Shown here: piece after piece, positions 27,603-48,593 of the stretch
Layout of the letters: the number at the start of each line of letters is the position of its first letter
Numbering within the stretch: the first letter of the stretch is position 1
Assembly (NCBI GenBank): GCA_017465505.1
Contig: JAFTWB010000013.1
Location: 105,557-169,556, forward strand
Length of the DNA: 64,000 bases
Source of the DNA: Clostridia bacterium
GTDB lineage: Bacteria > Bacillota > Clostridia > Oscillospirales > Acutalibacteraceae
Direction of reading: 5' to 3'
The notes under the pieces: generated by a model
What the model saw: the letters and a program-made list of their open reading frames with translations, nothing else
The model's database searches: none
What the model was told of the DNA's origin: nothing
Program-made: the position numbers and the translations under genes

Positions 27603-28529
27603 TTATTTTATAGACTGTATTTCGTCAATGTTGTATGGGGTTGTCTGGTACACAAAGTAGTTGAGCCAGTTGGAGTAAAGGAGACTTGAGTGACTTCTCC
27701 ACTTGACGATAGGGTCCTTTGTGTCGTCATCATCGGGGAAGTAATTCTTGGGCAAATCAATGTTTTTGCCGAGGTTTTTGTCCCTTAAATACTCTTTTTT
27801 CAGGGTGTCACGGTCGTACTCTGAGTGGCCTGTAATGAAAATCTGTCTGCCTTTTGCAGTGGAAACGGCGTAAACTCCTGTTTCCTCAGAAGAGGAGAGG
27901 ATTTTAAGACCTTCGATTGCCTCGATGTCTTCACGTCTTACTGTGGTGTGGCGTGATTGAGGCACCCAGAACTCGTCGTCTGAGCCACGGAAAAGCATAG
28001 AGTGCTTGTAGTCCAGAGTGTGCTTGAAAATACCGAAAAGCTTTTTCTCCAAGGGGTATTTCTTTATGCCGTAATGGTAGTAAAGACCTGCCTGAGCACC
28101 CCAACAGATGTGAAATGTTGAGGTGACGTTGGTTTTTGTCCACTCTAAAATTCTGCAAAGCTCATCCCAGTACTCAACCTCTTCAAACTCAAGGTGCTCA
28201 ACGGGAGCACCTGTGATAATCATACCGTCAAACTTGCGGTGTTTGATTTCGTCAAAGGTTTTGTAAAAGCTGAGAAGGTGGTCGCTGTCCACATTTTTGG
28301 ACTTGTGGGTAGCGGTGTGAATCAGCTCCAAATCAACCTGCAATGGAGAATTTCCCAGAAGACGTGCAAGCTGAGTTTCGGTTTCCACCTTGGTGGGCAT
28401 AAGATTTAAAACAACAATCTGCAAAGGACGGATGTCCTGTGTGAGAGCTCTTGTTTCGGTAATTGCGAAAATATTTTCGTCAGATAAGGTTTTGGTAGCA
28501 GGAAGCTCATTTGGGATTTTGATTGGCAC
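27603..28529 (-). CDS. metA: Homoserine O-acetyltransferase (MetA family)
   Basis: The 308-residue enzyme acylates homoserine in methionine synthesis. The catalytic Cys lies in '[16 protein letters not shown]', and the His-x-Glu pair in '[12 protein letters not shown]'. The loop reads TGAPVE, with Glu where the succinyl-CoA-using E. coli enzyme has Gly. In this family Glu is linked to acetyl-CoA use, which also suits the O-acetylhomoserine sulfhydrylase upstream. The start is GTG 28529, placed by AGGAGGTG seven bases upstream. It follows metY by 17 bp. Confidence 0.92.
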
Positions 28530-28546
28530 AAAATCACCTCCTAAAA

Positions 28547-29830
28547 TCAAACTTGTGCTAATGCGTTTTCAATGTCAGCGATTAAGTCCTCTGCGCCTTC
28601 AATACCGCAGGAGAAGCGGACTAAATCAGGAGAAATGCCTGCGGCTGTAAGCTCGTCGTCGTTCATCTGTCTGTGGGTTGCACTGGCAGGATGTAAGCAG
28701 CAGGTACGGGCGTCTGCAACGTGGGTTTCGATTGCAGCAATCTTAAGGTTTTTCATAAAGGCTTCAGCGGCAGCTCTGCCACCCTTAACACCAAAGGATA
28801 CAACGCCGCAACCGCCCTGAGGCATATATTTCATTGCAAGCTCATAGGAAGCGTCACCCTCTAAATGGGGAAAACGTACCCAGGAAACCTTGGGATGATT
28901 CTTAAGATACTGTGCTACAGCAAGACCGTTTGTGCAGTGCTGACGCATTCTCAGGTGTAAGCTTTCAAGACCCATATTTATATAGAAAGCATTCTGAGGG
29001 GACTGGATACAGCCGAAATCTCTCATAAGCTGAGCAGTTGCCTTTGTGATATATGCACCCTCAAGACCGAATCTTTCTGTATAAGTTACGCCGTGATAGC
29101 TCTCGTCGGGAGTGCACAGACCAGGGAATTTGTCGGGGTACTTTGTCCAGTCGAATTTGCCTGAGTCAACAATACATCCGCCTACGGAAACGCCGTGGCC
29201 GTCGATGTATTTTGTGGTGGAGTGGATAACAATGTCAGCACCCCACTCAAAGGGACGGCAGTTAACGGGAGTAGCAAAGGTGTTGTCAACAATAAGAGGA
29301 ACGCCGTGGCTGTGAGCAGCATTTGCAAACTTCTCAATATCAAGTACAACTAAAGCGGGGTTTGCAATAGTTTCGCCGAAAAGTGCCTTTGTGTTGGGCT
29401 TAAAGGCGGCGTTGAGCTCTTCTTCACTGCAATCGGGAGCGACAAAGGTGAAGTCAATGCCCATTCTCTTCATTGTAACTGCGAAAAGGTTATATGTGCC
29501 GCCGTAAATTGCAGAAGAGGCAACAACGTGATCTCCTGCACCAGCAATGTTGAAAATGCTGAAAAAGCTTGCAGCCTGACCTGAAGAGGTAAGCATTGCG
29601 GCAGTGCCGCCTTCAAGCTCACAGATTTTCTTTGCAACGGTGTCGTTGGTGGGGTTCTGAAGTCTTGTGTAAAAATAGCCCTCAGCCTCTAAGTCGAAGA
29701 GCTTACCCATAGCCTCACTTGTGGCGTACTTGAAGGTTGTGCTCTGAACAATGGGAATCTGACGGGGCTCGCCGCTTTCAGGGGTGTAGCCGCCCTGAAC
29801 GCATTTGGTATCGATACTGAAGTTATTCAT
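28547..29830 (-). CDS. metY: O-acetylhomoserine sulfhydrylase (MetY)
   Basis: The 427-residue PLP enzyme makes homocysteine from O-acetylhomoserine and sulfide. Family marks are '[12 protein letters not shown]', '[15 protein letters not shown]', 'LTSSGQAA', '[10 protein letters not shown]' and the PLP lysine in '[11 protein letters not shown]'. Length and the '[11 protein letters not shown]' insertion distinguish it from MetB/MetC. The gene lies behind a leader containing a Met/Cys-rich peptide and a terminator (29850-30003). AGGAGG precedes the ATG. Confidence 0.95.
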
Positions 29831-29849
29831 TGTATCTTCCTCCTTTGTA

Positions 29850-29890
29850 AAAATAAAGAAAAGGCAGAAACCCTGAAACGGGTATCTGCC
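29850..29890 (-). terminator. Attenuator terminator of the metY-metA operon
   Basis: On the minus strand GGCAGA-ACCC-type arms (GGGCAGATACCC and GGGTTTCTGCC) pair around GTTTCA, followed by a T-rich tract TTTTCTTTATTTTT. It lies between the leader peptide and metY. Its 5' arm (GAGGGCA, 29887-29893) can instead pair with TGCCTTC inside the leader peptide (29931-29937). Confidence 0.8.
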
Positions 29891-29921
29891 CTCAAAAATC
29901 AGATAAAATCAAAAGATTACA

Positions 29922-29981
29922 TCAGTTTTTGAAGGCACAGGTGCACATCATCATATTGTAGTTTAAATACAAGCTTTTCAT
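29922..29981 (-). CDS. Met/Cys-rich leader peptide of metY-metA
   Basis: A 19-codon frame reads MKSLYLNYN-MMM-CTC-AFKN and stops. AGGAGGAC stands 6 bases before its ATG, a better ribosome site than most genes here. Three consecutive Met codons and two nearby Cys codons are the expected sensor for a methionine/sulfur operon. The peptide stop is 31 bases before the terminator stem. Promoter, ribosome site, regulatory codons, competing stems and terminator are all in place for ribosome-mediated attenuation. Confidence 0.8.
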   Translation of the reverse strand: MKSLYLNYNMMMCTCAFKN

Positions 29982-30009
29982 TTTGGTGTCCTCCTGTAAA
30001 CTTAAATTT

Positions 30010-30038
30010 ATTATAAACCAACTTGCAGACTATGTCAA
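30010..30038 (-). promoter_or_regulatory. Promoter of the metY-metA operon
   Basis: Consensus TTGACA (30033-30038) and TATAAT (30010-30015) are 17 bp apart on the minus strand. Transcription would start about 22 bases before the leader peptide. Confidence 0.88.
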
Positions 30039-30107
30039 CTTTTTTTAGCTGTAAAGGCTTACCAAGAGAGATTTTGCAAATTTATTGGATAAATCCTGCA
30101 AAAATAC

Positions 30108-30136
30108 TTGTGCTTATTGCCGAGTTTTGGTATAAT
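30108..30136 (+). promoter_or_regulatory. Promoter of the symporter-ior-paaK operon
   Basis: TTGTGC (30108-30113) and TATAAT (30131-30136) are 17 bp apart, about 52 bases before the first ATG. Confidence 0.6.
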
Positions 30137-30187
30137 TAAATATCAATTTTGTGAAAAATGGAATTTTTCGCTATTTTTTGAAAGAAG

Positions 30188-31741
30188 ATGATAAATATGG
30201 TTATTAAAATCCTGTTTATTCTGCTTTTTCTGGTAATTACCGTGGGTATCGGTATTTACTGCCGAAAAAAAGCAACGGATGTAAACGGGTTTGTACTGGG
30301 CGGCAGGTCTGTGGGCCCTTGGCTTACGGCTTTTTCTTTTGGTACATCTTACTTTTCTGCTGTAATCTTTGTTGGCTATGCAGGACAGTTTGGTTGGAAC
30401 TTCGGTCTGGCCTCCACCTGGATTGGTCTGGGTAACGCCCTTATCGGCTCTTACCTCGCCTGGAAGATTTTAGGCAGACGAACAAGGGTTATGACTCAGC
30501 ACCTCGGTAGTGCTACAATGCCCGACTTTTTTGAGAAACGTTACGGCTCAAAGACTCTTAAGATAGTTGCTTCTGCCATTGTTTTTGTCTTTATGATTCC
30601 TTACACCGCTTCTCTTTACAATGGTCTTTCAAGACTTTTTGAGATGAGCTTTAACGTGCCTTACTGGGTATGCGTTGTGGTAATGGCTTTGGTTACTGCT
30701 ATGTACGTTGTGCTTTCAGGCTATATGGGCACAGCCTTAAACAGTGCGGTGCAGGCGGTAATTATGCTTGTGGGCATTATTGTGGTTGTTTTTAGCGTTC
30801 TTAATGTTCACGGCGGCTTACAGGCTTCCGTAGAGTGTCTTGCACAGGAAACCAGCGAAACAGTTGGTCCCGGCGGCTTCACTTCTCTCTTCGGCCCTGA
30901 CCCTCTGGCACTGCTGGGAGTTGTGCTTCTTACCTCTCTGGGTACTTGGGGACTTCCTCAGATGATTGGCAAGTTCTACGCTATTAAGGACGAAAAGGCT
31001 ATTAAGACAGGCACAATTGTTTCCACAGCCTTTGCGGTTATTGTTGCAGGCGGCTGTTATTTCCTTGGTGGCTTCGGCAGAATCTTCTTTGAAGATGGAG
31101 AGTTCAACGGTCAGTTTGACAATATCATTCCCACAATGCTCTCAGAGCTTAGTGATGTTGTAATCGCTCTTGTAATTATGCTGGTGCTTGCGGCTTCTAT
31201 GTCCACTCTTTCTTCCTTGGTGCTTACCTCAAGCTCCACCCTTACTCTGGATTTTCTCAATCCTCTTAAAGGCGGCAAGATGAAAGAATCACAGAAAATG
31301 CGTTGGATGAGATTTTTCATCATCTTCTTTATTGTTGTTTCCGCAGGCATTGCCATTGTGCAGGCAAATTCAAAAGTCGCCTTTATTGCTGACCTTATGG
31401 GTATCTCCTGGGGTACAATGAGCGGTGCTTTCCTTGGTCCCTTTATGCTGGGCCTTTACTGGAAGCGAGCAACAAAGCCTGCTGTGTGGGCAAGCTTTAT
31501 ATTCAGCACAGTGCTTAACATCACCTTTATGGTTTTCAAGCTTTCAGGTGCGGTGAGTGTACTTCCCAAGCTGTTGCAGTCATCCTCAAACGTTGGTGTT
31601 ATTGCAATGCTTACAGGTGTTCTTCTTGTGGTTGTAATCAGCCTTCTTACAAAGAAGCCTGACGAAAAAGCGGTTAACGAAATGTTCGCTTGTTATGATA
31701 AAACAGTGACTGTTAAAGCTAAAAACAGTCTTGGTGAATAA
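30188..31741 (+). CDS. Sodium:solute symporter family protein
   Basis: The 517-residue protein has about 13 hydrophobic helices and SSS-family marks: 'GGRSVGPWLTAFSFGTSYFSAVIFVGYAG', 'GSATMPDFFEKRYGS', 'VVLSGYMGTALNSAVQAVIM', 'AASMSTLSSLVLTSSS'. It uses a sodium gradient to import an organic solute. Being first in an operon with indolepyruvate oxidoreductase and phenylacetate-CoA ligase, it may import an aromatic acid or amino acid. ATG 30197 is an alternative start. Neither has a strong ribosome site. Confidence 0.88.
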   Translation: MINMVIKILFILLFLVITVGIGIYCRKKATDVNGFVLGGRSVGPWLTAFSFGTSYFSAVIFVGYAGQFGWNFGLASTWIGLGNALIGSYLAWKILGRRTRVMTQHLGSATMPDFFEKRYGSKTLKIVASAIVFVFMIPYTASLYNGLSRLFEMSFNVPYWVCVVVMALVTAMYVVLSGYMGTALNSAVQAVIMLVGIIVVVFSVLNVHGGLQASVECLAQETSETVGPGGFTSLFGPDPLALLGVVLLTSLGTWGLPQMIGKFYAIKDEKAIKTGTIVSTAFAVIVAGGCYFLGGFGRIFFEDGEFNGQFDNIIPTMLSELSDVVIALVIMLVLAASMSTLSSLVLTSSSTLTLDFLNPLKGGKMKESQKMRWMRFFIIFFIVVSAGIAIVQANSKVAFIADLMGISWGTMSGAFLGPFMLGLYWKRATKPAVWASFIFSTVLNITFMVFKLSGAVSVLPKLLQSSSNVGVIAMLTGVLLVVVISLLTKKPDEKAVNEMFACYDKTVTVKAKNSLGE

Positions 31742-48312: not shown

Positions 48313-48593
48313 CAAATTAAACCGTTGACGCGGAGATAACGGCAATTATGCCTTCACAGAGAGCCCGGGTAGCTGAAAGCCGGGCAGGAAACAGGTTGTC
48401 AAATGGGCCGCTGAGGGTGCAGTCAAATGAGCCTTTGCTCAGAGTATTCTGCAACGTGTGACATACGTCAGTTGTCGGGAGTATGATAGTACTCCTCAAA
48501 GTGTACGGCGAGCCCGTAAATCAAGGTGGCACCGCGGATAATCAGTTTATTCGTCCTTGACAGAGTATTTTTCTGTCAAGGACTGATTTTTTT
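48313..48593 (+). promoter_or_regulatory. T-box leader, probably tRNA-Trp responsive
   Basis: The leader contains the distal stem I motif AGAGAGCCCGGGT-GCTG-AAGCCGGGC (about 48356-48384), the T-box core AAGGTGGCACCGCGG (48523-48537), which pairs with the free tRNA acceptor end, and a terminator (GTCCTTGACAG / CTGTCAAGGAC then seven T, to 48593). A TGG triplet at 48404-48406 lies where the specifier codon should be and would read tRNA-Trp, in agreement with trpB downstream. The specifier assignment is by position only. Confidence 0.92.

Follow-up and report, generated by a model that had tools for sequence, protein, structure and literature searches.

What controls the metY-metA genes in this clostridial genome? 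T-box and SAM (S-box) leaders are the usual control of methionine genes in Firmicutes. For the locus studied here, which lies within a window of 64,000 nucleotides (the whole stretch of DNA that was analysed), a sequence-only reading had instead proposed that a leader peptide read by a translating ribosome senses both methionine and cysteine and governs a transcription attenuator. As set out below, the attenuator and its methionine part are supported by the present analysis, and the cysteine part is not.

All of the elements in question lie on the minus strand. A promoter matching the consensus at 12 of 12 bases (30010..30038; -35 TTGACA at 30038-30033 and -10 TATAAT at 30015-30010, with a 17-base spacer) is followed by a Shine-Dalgarno (SD) sequence, AGGAGG (29990..29995), and by a frame of 19 codons that starts at ATG 29981 and encodes MKSLYLNYNMMMCTCAFKN (29922..29981 including the stop codon, 29924-29922). 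In this frame three successive Met codons (29946..29954), the putative control codons, are followed by Cys-Thr-Cys codons (29945-29937). An intrinsic terminator stem-loop, GGGCAGATACCC-GTTTCA-GGGTTTCTGCCT (29862..29891), seen in the sequence and in folds, and its T-rich tail (29849..29862) separate the frame from metY, an O-acetylhomoserine sulfhydrylase gene starting at ATG 29830 (28547..29830; NCBIfam TIGR01326, 562 bits against a cut-off of 495.1). The 3' end of metY is overlapped by metA, a homoserine O-acetyltransferase gene (27603..28550; NF047918 MetA_acetyl, 494.5 bits against 460.5) whose true start is probably a few codons downstream of the listed TTG; by these NCBIfam matches the controlled genes belong to methionine synthesis. 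The stem at 29891-29862 is absent from the list of a simple terminator scan, perhaps because of an internal mismatch, and is present in RNA folds. Promoter, ribosome site, Met-run frame and terminator had all been named by the sequence-only reading, and all are borne out by the sequence and, most strongly, by their conservation in 12 species.

The same reading had paired TGCCTTC (29937-29931) with GAGGGCA (29893-29887). This helix is real and longer than claimed: the pairing of a 5' arm within the frame, GCCTTCAAAAA (29926..29936, in the Ala-Phe-Lys-Asn codons), with a 3' arm, TTTTTGAGGGC (29888..29898), extends the seven pairs by five A-U pairs, and the 3' arm overlaps the 5' arm of the terminator. 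In terms of the competing helix, GCCUUCAAAAA pairs with UUUUUGAGGGC, a segment that includes the 5' portion of the terminator stem. None of 200 shuffles folds as well as the leader RNA (z -4.38). Four short ATG frames with a strong SD occur in the window and only the leader frame has Met-Met-Met after its start; none of the 594 SD-preceded short frames in 40 first-order Markov shuffles of the window has such a run. Three of the leader peptides were searched against NCBIfam and matched nothing up to an E of 1.

Relatives carry the same arrangement. We sought metY in 60 genomes of the genus and inspected the upstream DNA of 30 matches (L012 had none), one further leader being recovered from a split gene, and a covariance model built from six leaders was then run on 161 genomes of the genus. 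It found the leader in 12 of the 161 species at 93-116 bits, the next match scoring 34; six of the 12 match by construction, and the independent six are G082, G068, G092, G080, G072 and G079. In every one of the 12 species the leader stands before metY, and metA adjoins metY in nine, the sequence ending too soon in the other three. Beyond the genus, the sole strong match in samples of the family (398 genomes) and the order (394 genomes) was the window's own genome; these samples contain few genomes of the genus and none of the other 11 leader genomes, since these would have matched. Three other family genomes reached 37-38 bits. Neither these three loci nor the weak matches L045-L050 and L053-L056 have a neighbouring met gene, as judged from ORFs by eye, and we rejected them; L056, near an ilvB-like ORF, has its terminator ahead of that gene's own promoter-like stretch, no SD-preceded leader frame and no Rfam match.

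A pattern scan of a named genome collection returned 12 records, 11 of them identical letter for letter to one of the 12 leaders and labelled as Ruminococcus sp., Clostridia, Eubacteriales and Oscillospiraceae MAGs, seven of which come from goat, sheep or roe deer gut according to their titles. The twelfth, L063 in a Verrucomicrobia record, was discarded as a chance match inside a long open frame. Inspection of the upstream stretches of 60 more family metY genes revealed no short ATG frame that followed an SD and contained either a Met pair or three Met codons. A generic pattern of SD, frame and three ATG codons matches in at least 127 of the 398 family genomes, and many of the matches listed look like signal peptides from the matched strings only, so that an unrelated Met leader could escape such a scan.

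The 12 leaders share a strict architecture around varied peptides. The TTGACA-TATAAT spacing is 17 bases in five leaders and 18 in seven, and GGAG stands ahead of the start codon in all of them; the G092 frame is also open to an ATG farther upstream within the promoter, and there we used the ATG that follows the SD. The peptides, of 19 to 21 amino acids, fall into groups formed by MKSLYLNYNMMMCTCAFKN and its near copies (5 species), MYINYEKTHMMMCNSAFRNH and three similar peptides, MYATLKNTYMMMRRSAFKNT and one similar peptide, and MYTNFKTIYMMCRSAFRSITE. Throughout, the Met run begins at codon 10 (three Met codons in 11 leaders, two in one) and nine bases, that is three codons, lie between the last Met codon and the GCC at which the antiterminator arm begins. 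The stop codon lies 21 to 35 bases from GAGGGC, depending on the species. The sequence-only reading had proposed looking to relatives for conserved Met/Cys-rich frames, and it is the Met run that is conserved, in 12 of 12; the three codons after it hold two Cys codons in five leaders, one in five and none in two.

The two RNA helices are conserved as well. The antiterminator has 94.7% of its cells paired across the 12 species, and sliding its arms lowers pairing to 36-69%. Of the co-varying pairs that the same reading had proposed to test for, there is one that varies on both sides (A-U, G-U or G-C), which is weak evidence, the observed covariation score being reached by 53 of 500 shuffles. 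In the terminator 97.0% of cells are paired and changes are one-sided only, a pattern to be expected of a 5' arm shared between two helices.

Could this be a metabolite- or tRNA-binding RNA, a SAM riboswitch or a T-box, with an accidental short frame? Such RNAs are certainly at hand. A SAM riboswitch match is present in 139 of the 161 genomes of the genus (138 above cut-off), all 12 leader species included, and it lies directly before a metK-like ORF, identified by eye, in G000, G028, G010 and G072; the one match in the window's genome lies before a metK-like gene. T-boxes are present in all 12 leader species, and one precedes metY at each of two sister-genus loci (103.8 and 86.2 bits, cut-off 93, in 13 searched of 29 loci), namely L124 2851-3098 and L131 2865-3116 (minus strand). 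At the leader itself, however, RF00162 (SAM riboswitch) gave no match, RF00230 (T-box) gave none in 29700-30200 at E up to 5, and the best weak Rfam match, L20 leader, was rejected at 22.1 bits against a cut-off of 58.7. No Rfam family exceeds its cut-off in the window, and bases in the 5' half of the leader differ between subclades, unlike T-box and SAM leaders, which need no translation and have a conserved RNA fold, one that the Met leader does not match. We consider this explanation exceedingly improbable.

Two further matches from these searches may be recorded here. A second SAM riboswitch match in G010 (C7:1105-1192, L120; 59.2 bits) does not lie before metK, and no Met gene was recognised beside it by eye. 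On the plus strand of the window, a T-box leader at 48316-48561 scores 90.9 bits, just below the Rfam cut-off of 93; the ORF that follows from about 48598 is trpB-like by eye, and a UGG in the specifier region would point to Trp.

Met has a single codon, so kept ATG repeats alone cannot separate selection on the peptide from selection on the RNA. Over codons 2-10 the MMMCTC subclade (5 rows) has a pN/pS of 0.075 and the YEKTH subclade (4 rows) one of 0.081; the value rises to 0.47 for the MMMRRS pair and to 0.57 across 11 rows, G020 being left out of these counts for its one Met codon fewer and the compared pairs not being independent. In the first two subclades about 8 of 12 changes are synonymous by eye, against 14-20% expected (binomial 4e-5 to 6e-4). 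The other two frames contain stops in most groups; frame 2 is open in the MMMCTC and MMMRRS groups, where it gives no synonymous change and a value of 0.87. The Ala-Phe codons are GCC TTC in all 12 leaders; in the metY genes GCC makes up 18% of Ala codons and TTC 56% of Phe codons. Within two subclades the residues of codons 2-9 are kept, and they differ between subclades (L033-L044).

That constraint could also be taken as the signature of an arrest peptide, in which the nascent chain, perhaps together with bound Met or S-adenosylmethionine, halts the ribosome instead of uncharged tRNA. A plain codon counter would not need the residues ahead of the Met run to be kept as they are in two subclades (pN/pS about 0.08). 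Yet these residues vary among subclades (KSLYLNYN, YINYEKTH, YATLKNTY) while the Met run and its spacing stay constant, and arrest by the nascent chain thus seems to us an improbable account, if perhaps the least improbable of those we set against attenuation by Met codons.

How would a Met run at this position act on the terminator? Beyond its A-site codon a ribosome shields about nine bases, and we assumed this reach in all stall calculations. When the last Met codon occupies the A site, the edge of the ribosome therefore stands just before GCC. For a ribosome so placed, folding of only the RNA in front of it, made up to the terminator loop, gives the antiterminator a probability of 1.00 in all 12 species. 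With the ribosome one codon farther on or at the stop, the base of the terminator pairs at 1.00 in all 12 in the full leader, the antiterminator value of 0.00 past the Met run and at the stop being imposed by the assumption that GCC is covered and not computed. In some folds with GCC covered, the remaining arm UUCAAAAA can pair with UUUUUGAG beside the terminator.

These calculations bear directly on the cysteine part of the earlier claim. That the leader senses Cys, or Met and Cys jointly, by way of the Cys codons that follow the Met run would fit the chemistry of MetY, which uses sulfide, and is consistent with Cys-Thr-Cys in five of the 12 leaders and a single Cys in five more; were the ribosome to extend just six bases beyond the A-site codon, the arm would indeed stay free during a stall at the first Cys. 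If it extends nine bases, GCC, the arm's first codon, is already hidden when the ribosome stalls on the codon after the Met run, and the base of the terminator pairs as described. Two leaders moreover have no Cys after the run (MMMRRSAF) and only five have two, so that Cys codons at the stall site are not conserved. We judge a role for Cys improbable, and slightly more so than an arrest peptide.

Equilibrium folding of the full leader tells a different story from folding up to the terminator loop. At the Met stall the antiterminator then reaches 0.02-0.45 and the terminator 0.48-0.98, with a near tie only in G079, and the terminator is favoured in all ribosome states. E. coli trpL behaves likewise and also looks always terminated, for which reason we did not rely on equilibrium folding to judge the switch. 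Because equilibrium favours the terminator, the antiterminator must act during RNA synthesis.

We return to attenuation by Met codons and to what it would entail. When Met is ample, the ribosome would pass the Met codons and reach the stop, covering GCCUUCAAAAA, and the terminator would form. When Met is scarce, it would wait on the Met codons with its front edge ending just before GCCUUCAAAAA, and the freed segment could pair with nascent UUUUUGAGGGC, removing the 5' half of the terminator and letting transcription reach metY-metA. The locus has what such an attenuator calls for: a frame with its own SD, predicted to be translated, successive codons for the amino acid that the controlled genes make, an intrinsic terminator, and an antiterminator exclusive with it whose arm is free at the Met stall, coverage of that arm at the stop following from the assumed reach. 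The anatomy observed at the locus, its conservation in 12 species, the codon-level constraint in two of the three subclades and the invariant spacing together lead us to regard it as likely that this is a ribosome-mediated transcription attenuator that would stall and switch in response to charged Met tRNA, controlling metY-metA and sensing Met, not Cys.

The fate of a leader that is not translated at all deserves separate attention. In free RNA, before the 3' arm of the terminator is made, the antiterminator forms at 0.92-1.00 in all 12 species, and an untranslated leader is accordingly predicted by the model to read through. Loss of initiator Met-tRNA, by leaving the leader untranslated, would act in the same direction as a stall on the Met codons; lack of Met also reduces initiation, so such readthrough suits a Met sensor. 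The same prediction might suggest that the leader reports on translation in general, its initiation or its speed, and not on Met. A reporter of that kind would not need Met codons placed identically in all 12 leaders and ahead of Met genes, however, and we think it very unlikely. Returning to the Met sensor, we lean modestly towards a Met-specific attenuator of Clostridia in which stalled elongation and failed initiation would both give readthrough. A protector (1:2) helix making the untranslated leader terminate, typical of trpL and not required by the mechanism, was not found in the leader. The leader SD can pair with the segment before GCC, in letters that differ by subclade (CGGAG/CUCCG, ACAGG/CCUGU; L033-L044), and this helix is possibly a pause or protector helix. 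It appears in several folds; as a protector it was set aside, the free-RNA calculation not favouring it.

Where might the leader have come from? A tree of 65 MetY proteins places the 11 leader rows (G028, whose contig ends after 106 residues, being left out) in one clade (100/99) inside the metY of other genera. Among 29 metY loci of other genera, 19 have metA adjoining, and in none of the 29 do the 350 bases upstream contain a short frame bearing a Met pair or run. The sequence-only reading had named relatives with the same operon and no such frame as a case that would refute it; this case does occur, at the 19 sister-genus metY-metA loci, and since the leader species form one clade, these frame-less operons mark the reach of one origin. 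A further 24 species of the genus whose upstream DNA was inspected carry a metY of another lineage, without the leader and without metA beside it within the stretch inspected. That other-lineage metY (L007-L031) often lies right after an ORF with a membrane-like end segment, as seen by eye. The grouping of the leader clade's metY with that of other genera suggests transfer or differential loss, and the leader looks like a single invention retained by one clade.

The amino acids for which classic attenuators have been described, mostly in Proteobacteria, are Trp, His, Phe, Thr, Leu, Ile and Val. E. coli trpL is the closest comparison: its short frame includes successive codons for the pathway's product, its antiterminator and terminator helices are alternatives, and its stop codon lets the ribosome cover the antiterminator arm; when folded alike it gives the antiterminator at 1.00 for Trp stalls and 0.00 at the stop. 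It differs in sensing Trp where the leader described here would sense Met, and in its free RNA, in which the antiterminator is at 0.00, whereas the untranslated Met leader is predicted to read through. The parts of two papers that bear on the subject agree with that range of amino acids (PMC1262725, PMC2965389).

Leader peptides in Firmicutes and before sulfur genes have precedents. For instance, the ilv-leu operon of Staphylococcus aureus has a leucine-rich attenuator peptide, while in its relative Bacillus subtilis that operon is under T-box control (PMC5794164); the likeness is leader-peptide attenuation in a Firmicute, and the differences are Leu/Ile codons, the class and the operon. In bacilli a histidine leader peptide stands before hisS/hisZ in place of a T-box (PMC2965389), again a Firmicute leader peptide, with His codons and before genes of an aminoacyl-tRNA synthetase family. 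Mycobacteria have cysteine-run leader peptides before cys operons (PMC1262725), which resemble the Met leader in being short frames that encode consecutive residues of one sulfur amino acid ahead of sulfur genes; the amino acid there is Cys and no terminator was seen, whereas the Met leader has both terminator and antiterminator. The accessible part of the open-licence PubMed Central literature contained no Met leader-peptide attenuator that we could find, an absence of little weight given that scope. The principle of attenuation is thus known, and Met as the amino acid and the host group appear to be new.

With a T-box before the homologous metY in one sister genus and a leader peptide here, the two would represent a switch of sensor within one family. 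Met also starts every protein, and so a translation-based sensor of Met must work when initiation fails. If our reading is true, this sensor avoids the problem of a Met-starved ribosome that may never start the leader, and the Met leader would offer a concrete, testable design for such a sensor.
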